From assembly GCA_903920695.1 (NCBI GenBank), contig CAIXNB010000164.1:1-40212 (forward strand): a stretch of DNA of 40,212 bases, read 5' to 3'. The stretch's first letter is position 1, and every line of letters starts with the position of its first letter. The notes beneath the pieces are model-generated. The model saw nothing but the letters and a program-made list of their open reading frames with translations. It was not told the DNA's origin and did not search any database. The stretch comes from an uncultured beta proteobacterium. Lineage in GTDB: Bacteria; Pseudomonadota; Gammaproteobacteria; Burkholderiales; Burkholderiaceae_C. Of this stretch, positions 23,997 through 36,149 are shown piece after piece. Made by a program: the position numbers and the translations under genes.

Positions 23997-24764
23997 ATGA
24001 TTGCGCAAACCATTTTCAGCCTGCAAGGCCGCACCGCTTTGATTACCGGGGCCTCCAGCGGCATTGGCCTGCACATTGCCGGCGTTTACGCCCGCGCCGG
24101 CGCCCGGGTCGTGCTGGCAGCGCGCCGGCATGACCGCATCGAGGCCGCAGTGGACGAGCTGCGCCGCTCCGGCCACCAGGCATCGGGCGTCTACCTCGAT
24201 GTGACACAGACCGACAGCATTAGCGCCGCTTTCGATACGGTCGAGCAGGAGCTCGGCGCGCCACTCGACATCCTGTTCAACAACTCGGGCGTGCTTTATT
24301 CCAAAAGCTTTCTGGAGCAGGAGGAGCGCGAAATCAGCCGCATCTTTGACACCAACCTCAAAGGCGCCATGCTGGTGGCGCAGCAGGCGGCGCGGCGCAT
24401 GAGCGCGGCAGGCCACGGCGTCATCATCAATATCGCGTCGACCGCGGGCTTGCGCGCTGGCGGCTCGCTGTCGAGTTACTGCGCCTCGAAAGCCGCCCTG
24501 ATCCATCTGGGCAATGTGATGGCGCTGGAACTGGCGTCCAAAGGCATCCGCGTCAACACCATTTGCCCAGGCAATATCGAAACCGACATGCAGGCTTCGC
24601 TCAAGGATTTCGAGAAAGCCCTGATCAAGCGAACGCCGCTGCGGCGCTTTGGCAAGCCGGAGGATCTCGATGGCGTTGCGCTGCTGCTGGCGTCCGATGC
24701 GGGCCGCTACATGACGGGCACGGCGATTGCCGTAGACGGTGGGCAGACCCTGACCTGGATGTAA
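23997..24764 (+). CDS. Short-chain dehydrogenase/reductase (SDR)
   Basis: This is a classical NAD(P)-dependent SDR of 255 residues. The cofactor loop TGASSGIG is at 17-24, NNSG at 95-98, and the catalytic S148, Y161 and K165 (YCASK) are intact. It ends with the usual FGKPEDLDGVALLLASDAG and a GxAIAVDGGQT tail. The substrate is unknown. The gene is divergent from the acyl-CoA operon, where a 3-hydroxyacyl- or terpenol-type reaction would fit. It also lies 103 bases upstream of the UlaE-like gene on the same strand, where polyol or ketose oxidation would fit. I chose the ATG at 23997, preceded by GAGG; an in-frame ATG at 23964 is possible. Confidence 0.88.
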   Translation: MIAQTIFSLQGRTALITGASSGIGLHIAGVYARAGARVVLAARRHDRIEAAVDELRRSGHQASGVYLDVTQTDSISAAFDTVEQELGAPLDILFNNSGVLYSKSFLEQEEREISRIFDTNLKGAMLVAQQAARRMSAAGHGVIINIASTAGLRAGGSLSSYCASKAALIHLGNVMALELASKGIRVNTICPGNIETDMQASLKDFEKALIKRTPLRRFGKPEDLDGVALLLASDAGRYMTGTAIAVDGGQTLTWM

Positions 24765-24867
24765 GCAATTCCATTTCCAAACCATCCCTGACCTTGTTGC
24801 TTCGCCTTGAGCGTGGCGCGGCTTAGCGGTGTGCTCAACTACAATTCCACGAAGGATGAAAGCCGTC

Positions 24868-25722
24868 ATGCACAACCCCGTTGGAATCTACGAAAAAGCC
24901 CTGCCAAAAGACCTGAGTTGGGCACAACGTTTCGAAGCAGCCAGCGCGGCCGGCTACGACTTTCTGGAGATGTCGGTCGACGAAACACCCGAGCGCATGG
25001 CGCGCTTGGATTGGTCGCTGGCCGAGCGCCTTGACTTCTTTCGCGCCTCGCGCCAAGCCGGTGTTCCCGTGCCTTCGATGTGCCTGTCCGGGCACCGCAA
25101 GATTCCGTTTGGCAGTGCCGATCCGGCGCTTCGCGCGCAAGCCGCCGACTTCATGGAAAAGGCCATTTGTTTCGCCGGCGATACCGGTATCCGCGTGATC
25201 CAGTTGGCTGGCTATGACGTGTATTACGAACCGACCACGCTTGAATCACGCCAGCGCTATTACGAGGGCATGGAACGCGCCCTGGAAGTGGCGGCACAGC
25301 ACCAGGTGATGCTGGCGCTGGAAATCATGGACACGCCCTTCCTGAACTCGATCAGCAAGTACCTCAAGCTCAAAGAGCGCCTGCCCTCGCCCTGGTTCAA
25401 GGTCTATCCGGATCTGGGCAATCTCACAGCCTGGGGCAACGATGTCGGCGAGGAGTTGACGGCGGGCATTCACCACATCGTCGGCGTTCACGTCAAGGAA
25501 ACGAAACCGGTCGGCCCCGGTTTTGCCGGTGCCTTTCGCGATGTGCCGTTCGGCGACGGCACGGTCGATTTTGTCCGTTGTTTCAAAACGCTGCGCGAAC
25601 TCAAATACGCGGGGCCGTTTCTGGTCGAGATGTGGACCGAGAAGGCCGCCGATCCGCTGCTGGAGATCGCCCAGGCGCGCCAGTGGGTGGGCGATCGCAT
25701 GAAACTCGGAGGCTATGCATGA
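24868..25722 (+). CDS. ulaE: L-ribulose/L-xylulose-5-phosphate 3-epimerase (UlaE/SgbU-like)
   Basis: This TIM-barrel enzyme interconverts L-xylulose 5-phosphate and L-ribulose 5-phosphate. It opens [15 protein letters not shown] and has 284 residues, the length I recall for E. coli UlaE. The four metal ligands fit the family at E152 (ALEIMDTP), D182 (VYPDLGNL), H208 (GVHVKET) and E254 (FLVEMW). RDVPFGDG at 224-231 is also family-typical. I chose the ATG at 24868 over 24856 because AAGGA precedes it by eleven bases but touches the earlier ATG, and because the family sequence begins there. Its stop overlaps the start of the 4-epimerase gene (ATGA). It is part of the ula-like locus, although no UlaD-type decarboxylase is nearby. 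Confidence 0.9.
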
Positions 25723-26417
25723 TGCTGGAATTGCTCAAACATCAGGTGCTGCAAGCCAATCTGGAATTGCCCAAACTCGGTCTGGTCGATTTCACCTGGG
25801 GCAACGTCAGCGGCAAGGACGCCAAGAGCGGTGCCATCGTCATCAAGCCCAGTGGCGTTCCCTACGAGTCCATGACGCAGGACGACATGGTGGTGGTCGA
25901 CTCAGAGGGCCGCGTGCTCGAAGGCAGGCTACGGCCCTCCTCCGATCTGGCCACGCATCTTGAGCTCTACCGCCACTTCCCGTCGATCGGCGGCATCGTG
26001 CACACGCACTCGACCTGGGCCACCGTGTGGGCGCAGGCCTGCCGTGGCATCCCGGCGCTGGGCACAACGCATGCCGATTATTTCTTCGGCGAGATTCCCT
26101 GCACGCCGACGCTGACGGCGGCGCAAGTCGGTGGCGAGTATGAGCTGCAAACCGGGCTGGCGATTGTCAATTGCTTCCGGGATGCAGGGCTCGACGCGAG
26201 CCGCATGCCGGCCGTGCTGGTGGCCAATCACGGGCCGTTCACCTGGGGTGCCGATGCCAGCGCCGCCGTTCACAATGCCGCCGTGCTCGAACTCACTGCG
26301 CGCATGGCGCTGCTGACCTTGCAACTCGACGGTGCGCAGCCGGCCATGCCGCAGTACCTGCTGGAAAAACACTTCCTGCGCAAGCATGGGCCGGGTGCCT
26401 ATTACGGGCAGAAATAA
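25719..26417 (+). CDS. ulaF: L-ribulose-5-phosphate 4-epimerase (UlaF/AraD/SgbE-like)
   Basis: This class II aldolase-fold enzyme converts L-ribulose 5-phosphate to D-xylulose 5-phosphate, which enters the pentose phosphate pathway. The 232 residues can be numbered directly against E. coli AraD: zinc ligands H95 and H97 ([12 protein letters not shown]), H171 (ANHGPFTWG), the acid-base pair D120 and Y229 (GAYYGQK), and phosphate-binding [13 protein letters not shown] and SSD. All are intact. The start overlaps the 3-epimerase stop by four bases with GGAGG six bases upstream of it. The symbol ulaF is chosen for context; by sequence alone AraD or SgbE fits equally. A palindromic repeat follows 14 bases after the stop. 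Confidence 0.92.
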
Positions 26418-26430
26418 TTTCGCTGCCGGT

Positions 26431-26503
26431 TTGTCATTGCTGACTTGATCCGAAATCCATGGTGCGCGTGGCACTGGATCCCGGGTCAAGCCCGGGATGA
26501 CAA
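26431..26503. repeat. REPIN-like inverted pair between convergent genes (copy C)
   Basis: Unit 1 (26431-26459, TTGTCATTGC...GAAATCCA) and unit 2 (26475-26503, TGGATCCCGG...GATGACAA) repeat the inverted-pair structure seen at 3307-3383. The element fills the gap between the 4-epimerase and deoR 3' ends and may form strong hairpins in both transcripts. Confidence 0.8.
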
Positions 26504-26534
26504 CCGGGGGGCTTGCCCCGCTGCGCGCCGCCGC

Positions 26535-27329
26535 TCAACCTTCGTCGGGCACGCGTACCACGCTGACGCCGGCTTGCTCCAACTCCTCGCAGAAGGACAG
26601 CGGCGCCAGCCAGTCGGTAACGATCATGTCGATGCGGTCGAGCGCACAGGTCAGAAAACTCGATACGCAATTGAGCTTGGTGTGATCGGCGACGACGATC
26701 ACTTTGCCGCTTGAGTGGTCGATCATTTTCCGGTTGACGCTGGTCTCCTGATTGACCGCCGTCGTGCAACCCTTGGTGATGCTGACGCCATTGATGCCGA
26801 GCACGGTCAGGCTGGAAAACACGCCACTGAGGCCGGCAATGGTCAGGTCGCCGACCAAGGATTTGGACTGGGCGCGGTAGTCGCCACCGAGCAGAATCAA
26901 TTCCTGCTGCGGATCGAGCTCCAGCGTCAGACAGGCGGCGTTGTTGGTGACGACGCGCACCTTCTTGCCGTGCAGGTAATGGATGAACTCCAGCGTGGTC
27001 GAGCCGGCGTTGACAAAGATGGTTTCGTTGTCGTTGACCAGTGAGGCAACATAGCGCCCGATCAGGGCTTTCTCGCGCTTGGCCGTGTGGTCTTTTTCTT
27101 CGAACACTTCTTCGAGCCGCAGGCCCGAAACCGAGACCGCGCCGCCGCGCGTGCGGTCCAGCAGTTTGTCCTGCGCCAGGGCATCAAGGTCGCGCCGGAT
27201 CGTGATCTTGGAAACGCCGAATTCGGTCGCCAGTTCGTCGGCCGAGACCGATTGGCGCAGGCCCAGCATCTCCAGTATTTTCTTGTGCCGGTAGTTACTG
27301 ACCTTGGTCGGTGCGCGTGGACTGCTCAT
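26535..27329 (-). CDS. DeoR-family transcriptional repressor of the sugar locus
   Basis: This is a sugar-phosphate-responsive DNA-binding repressor. The N-terminal helix-turn-helix spans about residues 14-62 (RHKKILEMLGLRQSVSADEL, FGVSKITIRRDLDAL, RTRGGAV). The C-terminal effector domain has FVNAGSTTLEFI, TNNAACLTL, LLGGDYRAQSKSLVG, and VVADHTKLN, the usual DeoR-type sugar-phosphate site. The 264 residues are normal. It lies 17 bases downstream of the kinase gene on the same strand, so the two are cotranscribed. Its likely operators are the GATCAA-N-TTGATC palindromes at 28928-28940 and 30102-30115. The inducer may be a pathway sugar phosphate, by analogy with UlaR. Confidence 0.9.
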   Translation of the reverse strand: MSSPRAPTKVSNYRHKKILEMLGLRQSVSADELATEFGVSKITIRRDLDALAQDKLLDRTRGGAVSVSGLRLEEVFEEKDHTAKREKALIGRYVASLVNDNETIFVNAGSTTLEFIHYLHGKKVRVVTNNAACLTLELDPQQELILLGGDYRAQSKSLVGDLTIAGLSGVFSSLTVLGINGVSITKGCTTAVNQETSVNRKMIDHSSGKVIVVADHTKLNCVSSFLTCALDRIDMIVTDWLAPLSFCEELEQAGVSVVRVPDEG

Positions 27330-27346
27330 GGTGCTAAACCTTCTTG

Positions 27347-28855
27347 TTACTCGATGGCGGCTCTGAAGCCGGGTGCGGCGAGCGCCTGGTACAGCGCTTG
27401 CGAGTGCTGGCGCTTGCGCGCGTAAACCGCGTGCGTGTCGGGGTTGGACTGGTAGGCGATGGACGAACTTCTTTCCGTCAGACGTGCAAACGCGGCCGGG
27501 TAACTGGACTCGAGCCCGATGGCCACCGCGCCCGCCATCCAGGCGCCGCCGGAGGTGGCCTCGTTGTTGGCAAAGCGAACCACCGGGCGCTCGAAGATGT
27601 CGCTCTGAATCTGGTTGAACAGGTCGGACTTGGTCAAGCCACCCGAAACACTAACGCTCTTGACCGCGCCGCACAACTGCTCCACCCGTTCCAGGCTGGC
27701 CTTCATTTCGATGGCAATGCCTTCCAGGATCGCGCGCGCCATGTCGCCGCGCGAGGTGCTCAAACTCACGTTAAAGAAAACGCCTTTTGCCTGGGGGTCC
27801 CAGTAGGGTGAACCGCAGCCCTTGAAATGCGGCAACAGCAGCAAGCCGTTGGCGCCTGCTGGCACCAGCGCCGCCTCGGCATTGATGGCTTCGAACGCGG
27901 CGCCGGCAGCGTCAGTGCCGCGGCACACGGATTCGTTGAACCAGCGGTAGATGGTTCCCGAGGTCAGCACCGCCGCCTCCACAATGTAAGCGCCTGGGAC
28001 GGCCGAGACATTGCAGGCCAAGCCCATCGCCGGATCGAAAACCGGCTGCGCGGCGTGACCAATCAGATAAGAGCCGGTGCCGGTGTTGGAGACGGCGCGC
28101 TCGCCGCTAAACAGGCCCAGACCGAGGGCCGCGCATTGCTGGTCGCCGCCCGCTGACACCACGGGCATTCCGGCCATCAATCCGGTCGCACTGGCGGCCG
28201 ACGCGCTGAGTCCGCCGACCACCGATCCTGGCGCAACCAGATCGCACAGCATGGCAGGCTCGACCTCGAACAGATGCAGCAGTTCCGGGTCCCACTGGCG
28301 CGTTTGCAGGTTGAGCAGATTGGTGCGGCTGCCGAAGCTCTGATCGGTGACGAAGGCGCCGGTCAGGCTGTAAATGATCCAGTCCTGAATGCCCAGCAGC
28401 TTGTGCGTCTGGCGCCAGACCTCGGGGCGCTTGCGGCGCAGCCAGGTCATTTTCACGGCTGAGAACACCGGCGAGATGCGCAGCCCGGTCTTGCCGTAGA
28501 CCAGGGGGTTGAACGCGTCCATCTCCTGCGCCAGTTCGGCCGTGCGGCGGTCCTGCCACATGATCGCCGGATGCAGGCACTGGCCTTGTCGGTCGACCGC
28601 AATGACGGAGGAGCGCTGGGCGGCGATGGCAAGGCAGAGGGGTTCAATGCCTTTGGCCTTCGCCACCTCGGCGCAAGCCGTTAGCACTTCCAGCACGCGC
28701 GCTTGACAGGCAAGCGGGTCCTGCTCGACCCGGCCATCGTCAAAGAACAGCGGCACATTGTCCCGCTGCGCCATGTGAAGGAGCTCTGCATCAGCTCCGT
28801 AAAGGCAGGCTCTGACGCTGGTTGTTCCGACATCGACGCTGATGATCGCTTTCAT
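27347..28855 (-). CDS. FGGY-family carbohydrate kinase
   Basis: This is an ATP-dependent sugar kinase of 502 residues. The start at 28855 gives ISVDVGTTSVRACLYG, the first phosphate-binding loop (D8, G10-T12). Other features are MWQDRRTAE at about 99-107, the catalytic base D238 in SAGGDQQCAALG, and the C-terminal VSVSGGLTKSDLFNQIQSD (FGGY signature region). It resembles L-xylulose/3-keto-L-gulonate kinases (LyxK/YiaP) and xylulokinases; substrate cannot be settled by eye. In this locus it could replace the phosphorylation normally done by the ascorbate phosphotransferase system. It is divergent from the 344-residue unknown and cotranscribed with deoR. An in-frame ATG at 28933 lacks support. 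Confidence 0.88.
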   Translation of the reverse strand: MKAIISVDVGTTSVRACLYGADAELLHMAQRDNVPLFFDDGRVEQDPLACQARVLEVLTACAEVAKAKGIEPLCLAIAAQRSSVIAVDRQGQCLHPAIMWQDRRTAELAQEMDAFNPLVYGKTGLRISPVFSAVKMTWLRRKRPEVWRQTHKLLGIQDWIIYSLTGAFVTDQSFGSRTNLLNLQTRQWDPELLHLFEVEPAMLCDLVAPGSVVGGLSASAASATGLMAGMPVVSAGGDQQCAALGLGLFSGERAVSNTGTGSYLIGHAAQPVFDPAMGLACNVSAVPGAYIVEAAVLTSGTIYRWFNESVCRGTDAAGAAFEAINAEAALVPAGANGLLLLPHFKGCGSPYWDPQAKGVFFNVSLSTSRGDMARAILEGIAIEMKASLERVEQLCGAVKSVSVSGGLTKSDLFNQIQSDIFERPVVRFANNEATSGGAWMAGAVAIGLESSYPAAFARLTERSSSIAYQSNPDTHAVYARKRQHSQALYQALAAPGFRAAIE

Positions 28856-28927
28856 GACTCGCCACTTATTGCTTGAATCCCGGTTGAAGCATTTGGCTTC
28901 GATTGTAAAACCAATGATCCGGACTTG

Positions 28928-28940
28928 GATCAATTTGATT
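28928..28940. promoter_or_regulatory. DeoR operator candidate, kinase side
   Basis: GATCAATTTGATT is an almost perfect palindrome around a central T. It lies 73 bases upstream of the kinase start and matches the palindrome at 30102-30115. The surrounding 186-base divergent gap (28856-29041) must carry promoters for both the kinase-deoR unit and the 344-residue unknown. Confidence 0.5.
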
Positions 28941-28987
28941 CACTTTAGGCACCTTAATGATCGCTTGTCGCGCCGCAACCGGCATAG

Positions 28988-28996
28988 AATTGATCC
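28988..28996. promoter_or_regulatory. Second operator half-site in the divergent gap
   Basis: AATTGATCC, the reverse of GGATCAATT, repeats one arm plus flank of the palindrome at 28928. It is followed by TAACGC, as the site at 30072 is followed by TACGC. It lies 46 bases upstream of the start of the unknown gene. Confidence 0.4.
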
Positions 28997-29041
28997 TAAC
29001 GCGACTACTTTATTTCATTTTGACGTGCTGGGGTGATCTTT

Positions 29042-30076
29042 ATGAAATTTGAAAAACGGTTTTTGACCGAGATGAACCGCTGCTATTCGGCCAACAGCAT
29101 TGTGGTCGACGGCCAGACCCGGATTCTGCTGGCAACCGAGGGTGAAGGGCCGTGCCTGGCCTGGAGTGGCCCGGACTACGCGACCGCGCATGCGGTCTGG
29201 GACGGGCCCGGCGGAACCATGTCGATGGTGCCGATTCCCGGCACCAACGGCGAGTTTCTGGCGGTGCAGAAGTTCTTCAAAATGTTTCAGTGGGAAGAGG
29301 CCAAGGTGGTTCATGTGCGTCCACTCGCCAGCGGCGCCTATGAAGTCAGCGATGTGCTGCATCTGCCCTACATCCACCGCTTTGACCTGCTCTGCGTCGG
29401 CGAGCGGCTCTATTTCATCGGTTGCACCCTGGCCACCACCAAACAGTCCAAGGAAGACTGGTCCGACCCCGGCAAGATCTGGGTTGGCGAGTACGCGGTG
29501 GGCCAGCCATTGACGCTGACGGTTCTCAAGGACGGCCTGACGAAAAATCACGGCTACAGCCGCCTGACACGGGCGGCCGGCATGTCGAGCCTAGTCACCT
29601 GCGAGCAGGGTGCTTTCGAGGTCACGCCGCCGCCGACAGCGGGCGCCGCGTGGCAGTTAAGCCAATTGATGGACTGGCCGATCAGCGACATTTCGGCGAT
29701 CGATATGGATGGCGATGGTGAACTGGAGTTCGCCACCATCGAACCGTTTCATGGCTCGTATTTCCGCGTTTACAAGAAGATCGCCGGCAAGTTCTGCAAG
29801 GTGTTTGAGCACCCGGAAGTCAGCGAGTTCTACCACGTCGTCGTCGGCACGACGCTGGCCGGAAAACCGGTGTTCATCGGTGGCTGCCGCCGCGGCAAAC
29901 AGCAACTGTTCTATGTCCATGCGACGGCGGGCGCGGCGCTGCAACTCCAGGCTGAAGTGATCGAGGAGGGCGTCGGCCCGAGCAATGTCTATGTCCTGCA
30001 TGAGGCGGGCCGGGATATCCTGGTCGCGGCGAACCGGGAAAAAGCCGAGGCTGCGCTGTATTTCTTCAACTATTGA
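29042..30076 (+). CDS. Unrecognised 344-residue protein, propeller-like, with calcium-loop motif
   Basis: I do not recognise a named family. No signal peptide or membrane segment is visible, so it is cytoplasmic. The sequence alternates short beta-strand-like stretches and aromatic-glycine turns through its whole length (RILLATEGEG, TMSMVPIPGTNGEFLAVQKF, ERLYFIGCTL, KPVFIGGCRRGKQQLFYVHA, DILVAANREKAEAALYFFNY), which suggests a beta-propeller. SAIDMDGDGELEFATIEPFH (218-237) holds a DxDxD calcium-type loop (D221, D223, D225) like those in FG-GAP/VCBS repeats. I chose the ATG at 29042, with GGGGTG seven bases upstream; a GTG at 29033 is an alternative. It lies between the kinase and the UlaG gene, under the shared operators. 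The position suggests an enzyme or sugar-phosphate-binding protein of the pathway; this is inference. Confidence 0.85.
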   Translation: MKFEKRFLTEMNRCYSANSIVVDGQTRILLATEGEGPCLAWSGPDYATAHAVWDGPGGTMSMVPIPGTNGEFLAVQKFFKMFQWEEAKVVHVRPLASGAYEVSDVLHLPYIHRFDLLCVGERLYFIGCTLATTKQSKEDWSDPGKIWVGEYAVGQPLTLTVLKDGLTKNHGYSRLTRAAGMSSLVTCEQGAFEVTPPPTAGAAWQLSQLMDWPISDISAIDMDGDGELEFATIEPFHGSYFRVYKKIAGKFCKVFEHPEVSEFYHVVVGTTLAGKPVFIGGCRRGKQQLFYVHATAGAALQLQAEVIEEGVGPSNVYVLHEAGRDILVAANREKAEAALYFFNY

Positions 30077-30115
30077 TCCTACGCAAAGAAATAGGACCTA
30101 AGGATCAAATTGATC
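30072..30115. promoter_or_regulatory. DeoR operator candidates upstream of ulaG
   Basis: Two sites are present: ATTGATCCTA at 30072-30081, overlapping the end of the previous gene, and the palindrome GGATCAAATTGATC at 30102-30115. They repeat the pair seen in the divergent gap (28928 and 28988). An AT-rich stretch follows, with TTGTTT (30120) and TATTAT (30141) as a poor promoter candidate. The arrangement suggests that ulaG and the ABC genes start from their own regulated promoter. Confidence 0.5.
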
Positions 30116-30221
30116 TATTTTGTTTTTTAAACATTCATATTATTATCATCCAAGATAAAGTTTGTATCAAAACGATCATCTGTCGGAGAGTGCGCCTCGC
30201 CGACAGTCACAAGGCGGCAGC

Positions 30222-31286
30222 ATGGCAAAAGTAGATGAAATCACCAAGGAATCCTGGGTTCTGAGCACCTTCCCGCAATGGGGCACCTGGCTCAACGAAG
30301 AGATCGAACGCGAGGTCGTCAAGCCCGGCACCTTTGCCATGTGGTGGCTGGCCTGCACCGGCATCTGGGTCAAGAGCGAGGGCAATACCAACATCTGCAT
30401 CGACCTCTGGTGCGGCACCGGCAAGCGCAGCATGAAGAACCCGCTGATGGACGCACACCATCAGATGGCGCGCATGACCGGTTGCGTCAAACTTCAGCGC
30501 AACCTGCGCGTCTCGCCCTTTGTGATCGACCCGTTTGCGATCCGCCAGGTCGATGCCGTGCTGTCCTCGCACACGCACAACGACCACATCGACATCAACG
30601 TCGCTGCCGCCGTGCTGAAGAACTGCCCGGCCAGCGTGCCCTTCATCGGCCCGCAGTCGAGCACCGATGTCTGGCTGAAATGGGGTGTGCCGCGCGAGCG
30701 CATCACCACGGTGCGCCCGGGTGATGTGGTCAAGGTCGGCGACGTCGAGATCGTGGTGCTGGAAGCCTTCGACCGCACCATGGCGCTGACCATTCCCGCC
30801 GGCCAGACGGCCAAGGGCAAGCTGCCGCCAGACATGGACGAGGTGGCGGTGAACTACCTGATCAAGACACCGGGCGGCAGCGTCTACCACAGCGGTGATT
30901 CGCACTATGCCAACGGCTACGCCAAGCACGGCAACGAGCATGCGATCGACGTGGCGCTGGGCAGCTATGGCGAGAACCCGCGCGGCGTCACAGACAAGAT
31001 GACCTCGTCGGACATCCTGCGCATGGGCGAGGCCTTGAACTGCAAGGTCGTCATCGCCTACCACCACGACATCTGGTCCAACTTCATGGCCGATCCGATG
31101 GAGATCAACATGCTGTGGAACATGAAGAAAGACCGGCTCAAGTACAAGTTCAAGCCCTTCATCTGGCAGGTCGGCGGCAAGTTCATCTTCCCCGACAACA
31201 AGGATGACCTGGAATACCACTACGAGCGCGGCTTTGACGATGTCTTCACCAAAGACACCGACCTGCCGTTCCCGTCCTTCCTTTGA
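30222..31286 (+). CDS. ulaG: L-ascorbate-6-phosphate lactonase UlaG
   Basis: UlaG opens the lactone ring of L-ascorbate 6-phosphate to give 3-keto-L-gulonate 6-phosphate. It is a manganese-dependent metallo-beta-lactamase-fold enzyme in the cytoplasm. The 354 residues equal the E. coli length and match it closely from memory over the whole chain: [56 protein letters not shown] (metal motif H117, H119, D121, H122), [47 protein letters not shown] and the C-terminal LPFPSFL. The start at 30222 has AAGG eight bases upstream and matches the family start. The strong conservation implies that a phosphorylated ascorbate-like lactone is the real substrate. The ABC genes follow 39 bases later. Confidence 0.93.
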
Positions 31287-31325
31287 CCGGATGAGCCGGC
31301 AACCCCGAACCGCATAGGCCACAAC

Positions 31326-32414
31326 ATGACAGCCTCTGTCCACGGTCTGCAACTCAAGGGCGTGAGCAAGCGCTTTGGCGATGTCTCCGTGGTGCAGGAA
31401 CTCGACCTCACCGTGGAGCAAGGCGAATTCGTCGTGCTGCTGGGCGAATCCGGCTGCGGCAAGTCAACCGTGCTGCGCATGGTCGCCGGCCTGGAAGAGG
31501 TCAGCGCCGGGCGCATCTTCATCAAGGGCCGCGATGTGACCGATCTGCCGCCCAAGGCGCGCGATATCGCCATGGTGTTTCAGAACTATGCGCTGTACCC
31601 GCACATGGACGTGGCGCAGAACATGAGCTTTGCGCTCGATCTGTCCGGCAAACCGAAACCCGAGATCGAGAAGCGCGTCGCCGATGCGGCTGAAATCCTC
31701 AACATCACGCACCTGCTCAAGCGCAAGCCGAAGGAACTCTCGGGCGGCCAGCGCCAGCGGGTCGCCATCGGCCGCTGCATCGTGCGCGAGCCCGCAATCT
31801 TCCTGTTTGATGAACCGCTATCGAACCTCGACGCCAAGTTGCGCGGCCACATGCGCACCGAACTGGCGATGCTGCACGAGCGCCTGGGCAAGACCACGGT
31901 CTACGTCACGCATGATCAGGTCGAGGCCATGACGCTGGCCTCGCGCATTGTGATCTTTCACAAGGGCCATATCCAGCAGGTTGGCACACCGTCGGAAGTG
32001 TTCAACCGCCCCGCCAATCTGTTCGTCGCGGCCTTCATCGGCATGCCCAGCATGAACCTGCTCGAAGGCGTGCCGGTCACGGAAGGTACTCAGGTGTTTC
32101 TGCGCGGTCCGGGCTTTACCCTGGCCGTGCCGGGCCAGGGGCCGTGGCCGACGCAACTGGTGCTGGGCGTGCGGCCGCAAGCGCTGCGGCTTTCCAGCGG
32201 CGCGGGTATGTTGCAGTTGCAGGTGGATGTGGTTGAGTACCTCGGCACCGAATCGGTTCTGGTGGGCAAGTTGGCCGGTGGCAGCGATGCCCGCATCACG
32301 GCAGTGGTTAGCGGCCACCGCATTGACCTGCTGCACCAGACCGTGGCGCTCGATTTTGAGGCAGGCGAATTGCATGTCTTTGACAAGACCAGCGGTTTGC
32401 GGATTCACGTTTGA
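31326..32414 (+). CDS. ABC transporter ATPase, MalK/UgpC type
   Basis: This is the energising ATPase of the sugar importer encoded by the next three genes. Walker A GESGCGKST is at 40-48, the Q-loop is in MVFQNYAL, the signature LSGGQ is at 138-142, and Walker B LFDEP has D162 and E163, followed by the D-loop SNLDA. The switch histidine is in YVTHDQVEAM. A TOBE-type regulatory domain fills about residues 235-362. The length of 362 matches carbohydrate-uptake ATPases of the CUT1 group. It follows ulaG by 39 bases and precedes the binding-protein gene by 26 bases, so one operon is likely. Confidence 0.93.
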   Translation: MTASVHGLQLKGVSKRFGDVSVVQELDLTVEQGEFVVLLGESGCGKSTVLRMVAGLEEVSAGRIFIKGRDVTDLPPKARDIAMVFQNYALYPHMDVAQNMSFALDLSGKPKPEIEKRVADAAEILNITHLLKRKPKELSGGQRQRVAIGRCIVREPAIFLFDEPLSNLDAKLRGHMRTELAMLHERLGKTTVYVTHDQVEAMTLASRIVIFHKGHIQQVGTPSEVFNRPANLFVAAFIGMPSMNLLEGVPVTEGTQVFLRGPGFTLAVPGQGPWPTQLVLGVRPQALRLSSGAGMLQLQVDVVEYLGTESVLVGKLAGGSDARITAVVSGHRIDLLHQTVALDFEAGELHVFDKTSGLRIHV

Positions 32415-32440
32415 TGTTCGACAACTTTTAGGAGATGAAG

Positions 32441-33781
32441 ATGAAAAGACGCACCCTGATTCAAACCGCTGGCGGCGGCGCTCTCGGTCTGCTCGGCGCT
32501 GGCCTGCCCTTATTCGGCTACGCCCAGGACCGCTACGCCAAGTACAAGGGCCAGACGGTGGTGCTGAGCATCCCGGCGCACCCGCATTACGACGCCATGA
32601 TCAAGCTGCTGCCCGAGTTCACCAAGCAGACCGGCATCAAGGTCGAGGTCGACAAGCTCGCGATGGCGCGCATGAAGGACAAGCAGTTGCTGGAAATGGC
32701 CAAGCCCTCCGGTGATTACGACCTGGTCTGCTACGTCGTGATGTGGAAGAGTGAGTACGTCAAGAAGAACCTAATCCGCGAACTCGAACCCTTCTTCAAA
32801 AACCCGGCGCTGGCCGACCCCAACTACGACTTCAAGGACGTGGTGCCGCGCTATGTCGAAAACATGGGCCTGGTCGGCGGCCCCAAGGGTTATCTGGCGG
32901 GCCCGGGTGCCAAGCTCTACGGCATGCCCTATGGCGCCGAGACCTCTATCCTGGCCTACCGCCGCGACATTTTTGCCAAACACAACCTGAAGGCACCGGA
33001 CAACTACACCGAGTTCGAAAAGCTGCTGCCCATCCTCAAAGAGAAAGCCGGCATCGGCGCCCTGACCTCGCGCGGCCAAGCCGGTCACCAGTGCGTGCAC
33101 GCCTGGCTGCTGCACGTCAATCCGCTGGGTGGCCACATCTTTGACGACAAGTGGAAACCGATCTTCAACAACGAGGTCGGCGTCAAGGCGCTCAAGTTCC
33201 TCAAACTGGTCTCGGACACGGGCCCGGTCGGCATCCCCGGCTATGGCCAGGGCGAGATGATCACCTCCTTCCTGCAAGGGCAGGCCGCGATGTACCTCGA
33301 CTCCTCGCTGATCTTCGGCCAGGTGAACAACCCCTCGGTGTCGAAGATCGCCGGCCAGGTCAGCTATGTCGTGCATCCGAAAGGCGTGCGCTACTCATCG
33401 CAATCCGGCGGCCTGGGGCTGGCGATTCCGAAGAACGCGAAGAACGCCGACGCCGCCTTCCTGCTGATGCAGTGGCTGACCTCGAAGGAGCAGGACAAGG
33501 CGGTCTGCCGCATCGGCGGTGTGCCGAGCCGCAATTCGACCATGATGGACCAGGAGATGGTGCGCCAGTACCCCGAGTACATCACGCTGCGCCAGCAGCT
33601 CGAATACTCGGATCCGGATTGGCGCCCGATCATCGCCGAGTGGGACGAGATCAACATCCAGGCGCTCGGTGTCGCCGTCTCGGAAGCCCTGACCGGCAAG
33701 AAGTCGGCGCAGGAGGCCTTGAACGGCATGGTGCCCAAGGTCACCGACATCATGAAGCGTGGTGGCTACCTGAAGGCCTGA
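32441..33781 (+). CDS. ABC importer solute-binding protein with Tat-type signal
   Basis: This is a family 1 extracellular solute-binding protein of 446 residues that should capture the sugar in the periplasm. The N-terminus MKRRTLIQTAGGGALGLLG has twin arginines, a glycine-rich hydrophobic core and a likely cleavage after GYAQ near residue 29, so export by the Tat route is probable. The mature protein shows VVLSIPAHPHYDAMIKLLPE, KQTGIKVEVDKLAMARMKDK, YGMPYGAETSILAYRRDIFA and QGQAAMYLDSSLI. I chose the ATG at 32441: AGGAG is six bases before it, but it touches the other ATG at 32435. The ligand is not known; the locus points to ascorbate or a related sugar acid lactone. Confidence 0.92.
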   Translation: MKRRTLIQTAGGGALGLLGAGLPLFGYAQDRYAKYKGQTVVLSIPAHPHYDAMIKLLPEFTKQTGIKVEVDKLAMARMKDKQLLEMAKPSGDYDLVCYVVMWKSEYVKKNLIRELEPFFKNPALADPNYDFKDVVPRYVENMGLVGGPKGYLAGPGAKLYGMPYGAETSILAYRRDIFAKHNLKAPDNYTEFEKLLPILKEKAGIGALTSRGQAGHQCVHAWLLHVNPLGGHIFDDKWKPIFNNEVGVKALKFLKLVSDTGPVGIPGYGQGEMITSFLQGQAAMYLDSSLIFGQVNNPSVSKIAGQVSYVVHPKGVRYSSQSGGLGLAIPKNAKNADAAFLLMQWLTSKEQDKAVCRIGGVPSRNSTMMDQEMVRQYPEYITLRQQLEYSDPDWRPIIAEWDEINIQALGVAVSEALTGKKSAQEALNGMVPKVTDIMKRGGYLKA

Positions 33782-33784
33782 CCG

Positions 33785-34663
33785 ATGCGCACCCCGCGCT
33801 GGGTTCCCTGGCTCTATCTGGGGCCGGCCGTTGCCGTCATGGCAGTGGCCTGTCTCTACCCTTTGCTGTCGGCGCTGCAACTGGGGTTTTATGACTGGAG
33901 CATGGGAACACCGTGGGGTGAGGCGAAATGGGTTGGCATGGACGCCTTCAGCCGGGCCTTCCAGGACCCTGCGGTATGGCGCTCGCTGCGCACCACGTTG
34001 TTGTTTGCTTTTGTCTGCGTCGCCGCCGAAATGGTGCTCGGCATTGCGCTGGCGCTGGCCCTTGAGGGCCAGGTGCGCGGCATGGCGGTGTTTCGCACGC
34101 TGTTCATTTTGCCGATGATGATTGCGCCGATTGCCGTCGGCCTGACCTGGCGCTATTTGTTCGACGCGCAGTTCGGCCTGCTCAATGCCATCCTGGCCCT
34201 GTTTGGCGCGGCCCCGATTGGCTGGCTGGCGCAGGAGAACACGGCCTTCATCGCCATCATCATTGCCGACATCTGGCAATGGACGCCCTTTGTTTTCATC
34301 ATGATGATTGCGGCGCTGGCCAACGTTGATACCGCCGTGCTCGAAGCCGCGCGCGTTGACGGCGCCAACTGGTGGCAGACCACGTTTCGCGTCAAGCTGC
34401 CGATGGTGATGAACGTGATTGCCATCACGCTGCTGATGCGCCTGATCGACGCCTTCCGCGTGCTCGAAGTGATCTACATCCTGACCTTTGGCGGCCCGGG
34501 CGACAGCACCGAGATCCTGTCGCTGCACATTTACAAGACAGCGTTTGTCGGCCAGCGCATGGGCAGCGCCGCTGCCATTTCGCTGCTGCTGTTGATGGTG
34601 GTGGTGGTGCTGTCCTGGTTTGCGCTGCGATTGTCGAATCCGCTCAAGGATGAGGAGCGGTGA
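33785..34663 (+). CDS. ABC sugar importer permease, MalF type
   Basis: This is one of the two inner-membrane subunits of the importer. It has 292 residues with about six membrane segments (for example WLYLGPAVAVMAVACLYPLL, LLFAFVCVAAEMVLGIALAL, TLFILPMMIAPIAVGLTWRY). The EAA loop that contacts the ATPase is visible as EAARVDGANWWQTTFRVKLP. The typical MalF/UgpA-type ending LTFGGPGDSTEILSLHIYK is present. It starts three bases after the binding-protein stop and ends overlapping the next permease gene by one base, so translation is coupled. Confidence 0.92.
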   Translation: MRTPRWVPWLYLGPAVAVMAVACLYPLLSALQLGFYDWSMGTPWGEAKWVGMDAFSRAFQDPAVWRSLRTTLLFAFVCVAAEMVLGIALALALEGQVRGMAVFRTLFILPMMIAPIAVGLTWRYLFDAQFGLLNAILALFGAAPIGWLAQENTAFIAIIIADIWQWTPFVFIMMIAALANVDTAVLEAARVDGANWWQTTFRVKLPMVMNVIAITLLMRLIDAFRVLEVIYILTFGGPGDSTEILSLHIYKTAFVGQRMGSAAAISLLLLMVVVVLSWFALRLSNPLKDEER

Positions 34664-35493
34664 TGAGTGTGAAAAGACACCCGGCGCTGGTCGCTGCACA
34701 TTACGGCATATTGATTTTGCTGGCTGTTGTCTGTGTGGCGCCTATCATCCTGATGTTCGCCACCTCGCTGAAACTGCAGACGCAGATCTTCACCACCGGC
34801 ATCCACTTCATCTTCGCGCCCACGCTGGAGAACTACCGCGACGTGCTGGGCGAAGACAGCTTCAAGCGCTACCTCACCAACAGCCTGATCGTCGGCGTCG
34901 TCTCGACCGTCATCACGTTGGTGCTGGGCTGCATGGCAGCCTACGGCTTGGCGCGCTTTCGCTTTCCGGGACGCAAGAGTCTGGCCTACGTCACGCTGCT
35001 GCTGCGCACCGTGCCGCTGGCGGTGCTGGCGGTGCCGGTGTTCATGATCTGGAACCAGGTCGGCCTGATCAATTCGCTCTGGGGCCTGATCCTGCTCTAC
35101 GTGGCAGTGAACCTGCCGTTTGCGATCTGGCTGCTCTACGGCTTCATCCTGCAGGTGCCGCGGGAACTTGAAGAAGCGGCGGCCATTGACGGCTGCGGCC
35201 CGGTCAAGGTCTTCTACAAGGTGGTGCTGCCGCTGATCAAGCCGGGCATCGCGGCGGCGTCGATCTTCACCTTCCGCATCGCCTGGAACGAGTTCATCCT
35301 GGCCTTGGTGCTGACCGATCGTGCCACCCGCACGCTGCCGGTTGCGGCTTCACTCTATATCACCGACATCGGCGTCGACTGGGGCAAGATCATGGCACTG
35401 GGCAGCCTGATCGCGATCCCGCCGCTGATCTTCACCTTCATCGCAGCGCGGCAAATCATCACCGGGCTGACGGCAGGGGCGGTCAAGGGCTGA
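34663..35493 (+). CDS. ABC sugar importer permease, MalG type
   Basis: This is the second membrane subunit, 276 residues from the ATG at 34663 (TGATG overlap with the preceding stop; GAGGAG just upstream). The first membrane helix (YGILILLAVVCVAPIILMFA), the EAA loop EEAAAIDGCGPVKVFYKVVLP, and the CUT1-typical ending ITGLTAGAVKG are visible. It closes the ulaG-ABC operon. A related 22-codon ending survives as a remnant at 37064-37129. The next gene, an antitoxin on the opposite strand, ends seven bases further on. Confidence 0.92.
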   Translation: MSVKRHPALVAAHYGILILLAVVCVAPIILMFATSLKLQTQIFTTGIHFIFAPTLENYRDVLGEDSFKRYLTNSLIVGVVSTVITLVLGCMAAYGLARFRFPGRKSLAYVTLLLRTVPLAVLAVPVFMIWNQVGLINSLWGLILLYVAVNLPFAIWLLYGFILQVPRELEEAAAIDGCGPVKVFYKVVLPLIKPGIAAASIFTFRIAWNEFILALVLTDRATRTLPVAASLYITDIGVDWGKIMALGSLIAIPPLIFTFIAARQIITGLTAGAVKG

Positions 35494-35499
35494 TCCTGT

Positions 35500-35733
35500 T
35501 CAACTGGCATCCTGCTTCGCATCAAGCGAATCGAGCCGATCCAGCACAGCAAGCGCTTGCGCAACGTCGCCCGTGGCGGCTACGGCGCGGAAGTGGTTTT
35601 CTGTATCCCAGGCCGACAGCGCGTGCGCGCTCAATTGCTCCACCAGTTTGTTCATGCTCAGACCCCGGCTCTGCGCCAACGATTTCAATCGCTGCGCCGT
35701 GTCATCCGGTAGCCGTATCGTCAAAACGCTCAT
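35500..35733 (-). CDS. Ribbon-helix-helix antitoxin
   Basis: This 77-residue antitoxin starts MSVLTIRLPDDTAQRLKSLA, a standard ribbon-helix-helix beginning, followed by GLSMNKLVEQLSAHALSAWD. The acidic tail probably binds the toxin. GGAGGAAT eight bases upstream supports the ATG at 35733 over the one at 35751. It is the second gene of a pair: the PIN toxin gene comes first and its stop overlaps this start by one base. Toxin-before-antitoxin is the less common order. It presumably binds the inverted repeat at 36154-36177. Confidence 0.85.
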   Translation of the reverse strand: MSVLTIRLPDDTAQRLKSLAQSRGLSMNKLVEQLSAHALSAWDTENHFRAVAATGDVAQALAVLDRLDSLDAKQDAS

Positions 35734-36149
35734 TACCATTCCTCCAAACATTGCGCGGGCGTCAGTACCCGCAAGTGTCCCAAGCGCAACTCGCCAGCGC
35801 GAAGGTCGCGCAAATTGTGTGTCACGATGGCAGCAGCGCCACCGGCCAGTGCAAGCTCAATCAAGTGGTTGTCGCCTTCGTCGGGCAAATTGGGGCGCCA
35901 GCCGTAATACACCGTGACCCAGCGCCCCTGTCTGGCCAGAGCAGCCAACACCTGCTCGCGCTCGTTCGCGGTCGTTGTTTCACCCCAAACCGGGCGTCCC
36001 AGCAGATCGCGGTATTCCATCCACAGGGCGTTGCCGAAGAGCGGTTGGAAACCACCAAGCAGTGAGCGTCGCAACACCGCGCGTGAAGCGCCACCGGCAG
36101 AACGAAGTCCGGCGACGAAAACGTTGGTGTCGATGACAATCGGAATCAT
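35733..36149 (-). CDS. PIN-domain toxin (VapC-like ribonuclease)
   Basis: This is a 138-residue PIN protein of the type annotated as PIN-family toxin component. It has the N-terminal first acidic residue in VIDTNVFVAGL (D7), a central glutamate in EYRDLL (E46), and the late acidic pair in LPDEGDNHLIELAL (near residues 89-93), followed by IVTHNLRDL. All catalytic acids appear present, so magnesium-dependent RNase activity is expected. It is transcribed leftward, ahead of the antitoxin gene. The start at 36149 is just beside an inverted repeat. Confidence 0.87.
   Translation of the reverse strand: MIPIVIDTNVFVAGLRSAGGASRAVLRRSLLGGFQPLFGNALWMEYRDLLGRPVWGETTTANEREQVLAALARQGRWVTVYYGWRPNLPDEGDNHLIELALAGGAAAIVTHNLRDLRAGELRLGHLRVLTPAQCLEEW

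Follow-up and report, generated by a model that had tools for sequence, protein, structure and literature searches.

A candidate modular variant of the ula L-ascorbate locus, with an ABC importer, an FGGY kinase and a beta-propeller-like protein in place of UlaABC and UlaD

Background

A gene cluster between positions 23997 and 35493 of a 40,212-base contig of an uncultured beta proteobacterium (CAIXNB010000164.1; the whole contig is hereafter called the window) encodes UlaG lactonase and UlaE and UlaF epimerases, all matching models of ula pathway enzymes above cut-off, and lacks both the UlaABC phosphotransferase system (PTS) and the UlaD decarboxylase. How might such a locus supply UlaG with a phosphorylated substrate, and what stands at the step of UlaD? 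The comparison of UlaG loci reveals that gene content differs by two exchanges: an ABC importer plus an FGGY kinase take the place of UlaABC, and a protein of predicted beta-propeller fold, here called PROP, takes that of UlaD. Taken as a whole, the locus is reasonably likely to be a modular variant of the ula system for L-ascorbate, with the importer and kinase as front end and PROP at the UlaD step.

Results

A preliminary description of the locus had recorded the absence of the PTS and of a UlaD-type decarboxylase, leaving decarboxylation to be completed elsewhere in the genome, or done differently. Both absences extend to the entire genome (4.88 Mb, 231 contigs, 99.41% complete). No match to the UlaA-type EIIC component (EIIC-GAT) was found anywhere in it, so that the UlaABC phosphotransferase is missing and a PTS encoded elsewhere was rejected; the sole OMPdecase-family gene is PyrF, and a UlaD elsewhere was rejected as well. 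Of the two options left by the description, the first is thus not sustained, and the second gains a candidate in PROP, whose gene, sitting between the kinase gene and ulaG, had been overlooked. The stand-in for the missing decarboxylase very probably lies within the locus, and is PROP.

The set of loci compared numbers 61, and includes 57 loci retrieved by a scan with the window's UlaG, the window itself, a piece from the gammaproteobacterial class (L002), a plasmid copy from E. coli (L090) and the L. brevis locus L091; L076 and L089 are two pieces from one genome. When presence was scored by tblastn at 80 bits or more, PROP was found in 36 loci and UlaD in 18; both were found in none, and neither in seven. 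Four of these seven (L039, L045, L047, L089) are short or on cut contigs. L002 covers 4 kb, and its genome has a UlaD-type gene some 3 kb away (NF009832, 309 bits, cut-off 250); in L087 the ula operon is in fragments and UlaD leaves a weak trace of 79 bits; in L086 UlaG is broken. Searched genome-wide, 24 of 42 UlaG genomes matched the PROP profile, and none of the 16 among them carrying UlaD did. OMPdecase-family genes are two or more in all the 16 UlaD genomes; in the 24 PROP genomes there are none (2 genomes), one (19) or two (3), and in seven further PROP genomes one (4) or none (3). All matches over cut-off, from the window's genome as well as from the 31 others with PROP, were named, as PyrF in 27 cases and as other proteins in 2, none being UlaD; L103 served as UlaD control, and naming left out one 21-bit match below cut-off (G783). 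The second OMPdecase match of a Hungatella genome (L138) is a hexulose-phosphate synthase, the same protein which, below its cut-off, best fits the second match of the L050 genome (L137), and both were discarded as UlaD candidates.

PROP and UlaD are also singled out when all protein families are surveyed. Frames of at least 80 aa were grouped by single linkage in 36 PROP loci (28 taken from the initial 36, plus those of 8 of the 12 fresh genomes described below) and in 14 of the 18 UlaD loci. No family but PROP occurs in 36 of the former and 0 of the latter, and none but UlaD in 0 and 14, respectively. Since the 36 loci had been picked for having PROP, what carries weight is the lack of any other family with the same pattern. 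A bootstrapped tree of UlaG, made of 52 rows (34 PROP, 18 UlaD; undetermined rows left out), needs five changes of the label between PROP and UlaD, at least four of them forced by starred branches, and 5-6 changes are counted in the bootstrap trees; a quick tree of 56 rows also gives five.

The association was found again in a fresh sample, of 391 genomes, drawn from a different class, that of Eubacterium multiforme (L064) and presumably Clostridia. UlaG scored over cut-off in 12 genomes besides the centre, none of which, by handle, comes from the first set. PROP, searched in these genomes and in 24 of the 378 others, was found in 12/12 and 0/24, respectively (Fisher 8e-10, relatedness ignored), on the same contig as ulaG and 20-5933 bp from it. 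OMPdecase matches are absent from one of the UlaG genomes, single in nine and double in two; 11 are PyrF, the two weak second ones, best fitting ribulose-phosphate 3-epimerase, are fragments below its cut-off, and none is UlaD. One genome (G1272; C424, C465) hosts two ulaG genes, with a PROP gene near each.

In a single-sequence search of 399 genomes of the window's order PROP was found in the window's genome only. In the phylum, 397 genomes besides the window's own gave the profile nothing of full length, and two weak matches there cover 54-56 residues; on both scans, PROP was rejected as a common protein of order or phylum. Plasmids and viral contigs, searched with the single sequence, gave no match.

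The PROP frame opens at a GTG (29033), and the ATG at 29042 agrees with the relatives; no signal peptide is visible. Sequence searches against NCBIfam, Pfam and PDB gave no match above cut-off, hence the assignment of PROP to any known family was rejected, and the lack of matches to PF00215 or UlaD models places it outside the OMP decarboxylase superfamily of UlaD and SgbH. Among weaker matches, 21 of 28 PROP members touch FG-GAP (best E 0.00019), and one of the 28 matches PF22301, the propeller of aldos-2-ulose dehydratase, at E=0.0029, the window protein giving none at E<=1. The alignment of the 28 relatives has 40 invariant columns, among which H112, R113, D115, N169, H170, H237, H265 and R283, as well as D221, D223, D225 and G226, which make up a DxDxDG motif. 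According to PMC8023676, such a motif binds metal in the VCBS propeller group, to which the same paper assigns the aldos-2-ulose dehydratase propeller. The AlphaFold model of PROP is all-beta (pLDDT 92.9, pTM 0.91). Among the best 50 of 1426 Foldseek matches, the top seven by E-value are the EPTP propeller of LGI1 (TMq 0.70-0.72), and the first enzyme, which has the highest TMq (0.79, rmsd 6.2), is aldos-2-ulose dehydratase 4a7k; the title of the sister entry 4a7y describes it as active-site-metal depleted. The likeness to 4a7k lies in the propeller fold; the dehydratase differs in having 879 residues (TMt 0.33), and in acting, by name, in keto-sugar dehydration. With about 12% identical residues in these alignments, the evidence is at the level of fold only.

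Extra PROP copies were found in three genomes of the first set. The paralogue L134 resides beside a D-erythronate dehydrogenase over cut-off, a DAK kinase and a TRAP importer, L132 beside a dehydrogenase of the 2-hydroxy-3-oxopropionate-reductase type, DAK subunits and glycerate kinase, and L135 beside the same type of dehydrogenase, DAK subunits and, judging by eye, TRAP genes. By eye too, L133 is flanked by TRAP genes and a dehydrogenase resembling that of L134, and L136 by TRAP genes. No UlaD- or OtnC-like gene was seen near the paralogues in gene lists inspected by eye, with no search made. The paralogues L132-L136 probably serve other acid-sugar pathways, and their settings suit a family that would have keto sugar acids, or phosphates of these, as substrates.

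The front end of the pathway shows an exchange of genes too. FGGY kinases, scored at 200 bits or more, are encoded in 17 of 19 UlaG loci having a CUT1 or CUT2 binding protein, the other two (L045, L047) being short or ending early, vs one of 29 loci having a UlaA-type EIIC (L072). The latter figure becomes 2/30 if L091 (Levilactobacillus brevis), which has an FGGY gene and a PTS permease by annotation only, is added. A genome-wide search for EIIC-GAT in 15 genomes with FGGY at the locus found none in 13; the two that have it are Hungatella (L065) and Bacillus (L072). Eight loci of the fresh sample include five with EIIC and no FGGY, and three with FGGY and no EIIC, two of which carry ABC genes. 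The proposal of the preliminary description that an ABC importer and an FGGY kinase take the place of UlaABC is indirectly supported by gene content; the substrate and the specificity of the kinase are presumed.

The window's FGGY protein matches no NCBIfam model for kinase specificity at cut-off, the best being XylB (272, cut-off 380). In a quick tree of 29 rows with long branches, the ula-locus kinases cluster together, separate from seven FGGY kinases of E. coli (SH-aLRT 95). A LyxK-type L-xylulose/3-keto-L-gulonate kinase was rejected on this separate tree position and on the low identity to E. coli LyxK (25%, 110 bits). L072 and L091 are UlaD-type ula loci whose FGGY kinase belongs to the ula group. 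The N terminus of the window's binding protein, MKMKRRTLIQTAGG, is, judged by eye, a plausible Tat signal.

L050 is a locus with PTS and PROP. Its UlaG is 92.5% identical to that of L085 and 93.8% to that of L051, both ABC plus FGGY loci, vs 71.8-74.0% to two other PTS-type UlaG proteins compared. Such identity argues that the same UlaG substrate is delivered by both routes, and on these sequences the PTS and the ABC plus FGGY route very probably supply an identical one; in the simplest reading, importer and kinase would produce the same ascorbate 6-phosphate as the PTS. L050 (604-11464) is a natural mosaic, in which PTS-type ula genes accompany a UlaG and a PROP closely resembling those of the ABC/FGGY type, and UlaD is absent. 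A different arrangement is seen in L057, from a metagenome-assembled genome of Acidobacteriaceae, where pieces of UlaG, UlaD, UlaE and UlaF occur with no UlaA-type PTS or FGGY within 21 kb, and with no EIIC-GAT match in the genome.

The features of the locus are collected in Table 1. The SDR (short-chain dehydrogenase/reductase), UlaE, UlaF, DeoR, FGGY, UlaG and CUT1 importer genes listed in the preliminary description are all present with intact frames, and NCBIfam and Pfam matches agree with their assignments. UlaG aligns end to end (1-354) with E. coli UlaG in PDB 2wyl, and its identity to the copy on the E. coli plasmid (L090) is 72.3%. The DeoR-family protein scores only 107 bits with the UlaR model (cut-off 244), and was not called UlaR. 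The SDR was rejected as a core part of the cluster: a close orthologue (93%) is found 5' of UlaE in L036 only, some loci stopping before that site, and the gene is probably accessory, and outside the conserved cluster. Just past the importer genes (35733-36149, minus strand) lies a small protein resembling, by eye only, a VapC-like PIN domain.

Table 1. Genes of the ula-like locus in the window
Feature	Position	Strand	Evidence
SDR oxidoreductase	23997..24764	+	Pfam adh_short_C2
UlaE-type L-xylulose/L-ribulose 5-phosphate 3-epimerase	24868..25722	+	NF009689 409 bits, cut-off 200; PDB 3cqh UlaE
UlaF/AraD-type L-ribulose 5-phosphate 4-epimerase	25719..26417	+	NF006047 354.5 bits, cut-off 257
DeoR-family regulator	26535..27329	-	PF00455/PF08220
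FGGY kinase, proposed L-ascorbate 6-kinase	27347..28855	-	Pfam FGGY_N/C
PROP, beta-propeller-like protein, proposed UlaD replacement, 344 aa	29042..30076	+	fold model; exclusive with UlaD
UlaG, L-ascorbate 6-phosphate lactonase	30222..31286	+	NF008688 631 bits, cut-off 306; PDB 2wyl
CUT1 ABC importer ATPase	31326..32414	+	NF008653 (UgpC-type) 459 bits, cut-off 432
CUT1 solute-binding protein, twin-arginine N terminus	32435..33781	+	SBP_bac_1
ABC permease 1	33785..34663	+	UgpA-like 124 bits, below cut-off 335
ABC permease 2	34660..35493	+	PF00528 (BPD_transp_1)

Discussion

According to the pathway that we propose, unphosphorylated L-ascorbate would be imported by the ABC system, and converted by the FGGY kinase into L-ascorbate 6-phosphate. 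The lactone would be opened by UlaG, as is the established activity of the family, and the resulting 3-keto-L-gulonate 6-phosphate may be decarboxylated to L-xylulose 5-phosphate by PROP, a role suggested by the replacement of UlaD. UlaE and UlaF would complete the conversion to D-xylulose 5-phosphate, and the DeoR regulator probably governs the cluster. That PROP occupies the step of UlaD is quite likely; that PROP itself carries out the decarboxylation is a somewhat less secure claim, which we nonetheless favor.

Several observations count against this pathway, and are best weighed along with the explanations that compete with it. PROP might catalyse another reaction, such as isomerisation or epimerisation, or shield an unstable intermediate, CO2 being lost spontaneously, as is possible for beta-keto acids, or via an unrecognised enzyme elsewhere. 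A dehydratase-like fold does not show decarboxylation, and a dehydratase is the closest enzyme fold among the best 50 of the 1426 matches; the aldos-2-ulose enzyme is termed dehydratase/isomerase in the title of a reference of PMC8023676. The settings of the paralogues would also fit an isomerase, as such a step could be needed beside D-erythronate dehydrogenase and DAK kinases. Yet, an extra step would be required alongside UlaD too, whereas PROP follows the absence of UlaD alone in 36 loci from several phyla, with zero co-occurrence and no other family matching it. It is true that the loci were not a random set, having been found with the window's UlaG, and that many are close relatives. On balance, we consider a different reaction unlikely, albeit worth keeping in mind. 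Far less credit is due to the idea that UlaD is encoded elsewhere or in assembly gaps, and that PROP is an unrelated hitchhiker. The window's genome is in 231 contigs, many relatives are metagenome-assembled genomes, and five of the 31 other PROP genomes lack any OMPdecase match, even PyrF, which marks them as incomplete. Against this, the window's genome is nearly complete with PyrF as its only OMPdecase-family gene, the matches in the 31 other and the 12 fresh PROP genomes are PyrF, or of the hexulose-phosphate-synthase or epimerase type, and PROP lies less than 6 kb from UlaG in 12/12 fresh genomes; the hitchhiker hypothesis is very improbable.

Doubts on the front end concern the compound. 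The locus could serve a compound other than ascorbate, for instance a polyol or pentulose, which would enter through the ABC importer and reach the same phosphates after oxidation by the SDR and phosphorylation by the FGGY kinase. The solved chains closest to the binding protein are, by name, binders of sugar (5iai) and sorbitol (4rya), the SDR gene is found 5' of ulaE, and ketoses and polyols are common substrates of FGGY kinases. Still, a lactonase is needless in a pentulose route, the SDR is not conserved, and UlaG is highly similar both to the E. coli enzyme (72.3%) and between PTS- and ABC-linked loci (up to 93.8%), so that a non-ascorbate substrate appears rather improbable. The link between importer and kinase is, in turn, imperfect. 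FGGY genes are also found in two UlaD loci with PTS permease, L072 (Bacillus sp.) and, by annotation, L091, and neither ABC type of binding protein was found in ten PROP plus FGGY loci; most of these are cut short, L052, from Propionivibrio dicarboxylicus DSM 5885, spans a full 21 kb, and a CUT1 ATPase is present in L033 and L038.

The locus can be compared to two known systems of E. coli. It shares with the ula regulon (ulaG, ulaABCDEF, ulaR) UlaG, UlaE, UlaF, a DeoR-family regulator and the same predicted phosphorylated intermediates, but lacks UlaABC and UlaD, and has the ABC importer, the FGGY kinase and PROP. The yiaK-S/sgb operon (TRAP-type importer, LyxK, SgbH, SgbU, SgbE) similarly combines non-PTS uptake with an FGGY kinase followed by 3- and 4-epimerases; in contrast to the window, it has SgbH, annotated as UlaD type, lacks UlaG, by annotation imports 2,3-diketo-L-gulonate, and its LyxK is a distant kinase. 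Ralstonia eutropha H16 is said, in work of Stack et al. from 2020, to degrade ascorbate by an unphosphorylated route involving cytochrome b561, a gluconolactonase and a benzilic acid rearrangement, and reportedly uses a WD40-like propeller enzyme. The lack of full-length PROP relatives in the 397 phylum genomes speaks against identity of PROP with this enzyme, if the Ralstonia enzyme is common, though the sample may lack it. Among open-licence PubMed Central papers, none was found that describes an ascorbate route by ABC importer and FGGY kinase or a protein replacing UlaD, nor does the phrase "ascorbate kinase" occur in the papers listed by the search; words starting with "ascorb" are absent from the main text of PMC3245297, a survey of FGGY kinases.

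In a broader view, for which the chances are about even, PROP would found a family of decarboxylases of keto-acid sugars, or their phosphates, built on a metal-binding propeller, repeatedly swapped with UlaD, and with paralogues operating in other acid-sugar pathways along with D-erythronate dehydrogenase, DAK and TRAP proteins, and the partner FGGY clade would include the first ATP-dependent L-ascorbate 6-kinases. An unannotated propeller protein gains a specific enzyme prediction, and the breakdown of vitamin C may be viewed as made of two exchangeable modules. A genome with UlaG in which UlaD or the PTS is absent would then not necessarily be incomplete. If PROP is indeed a decarboxylase, proteins would have solved a second time, independently, a reaction known above all from the TIM-barrel enzyme UlaD.

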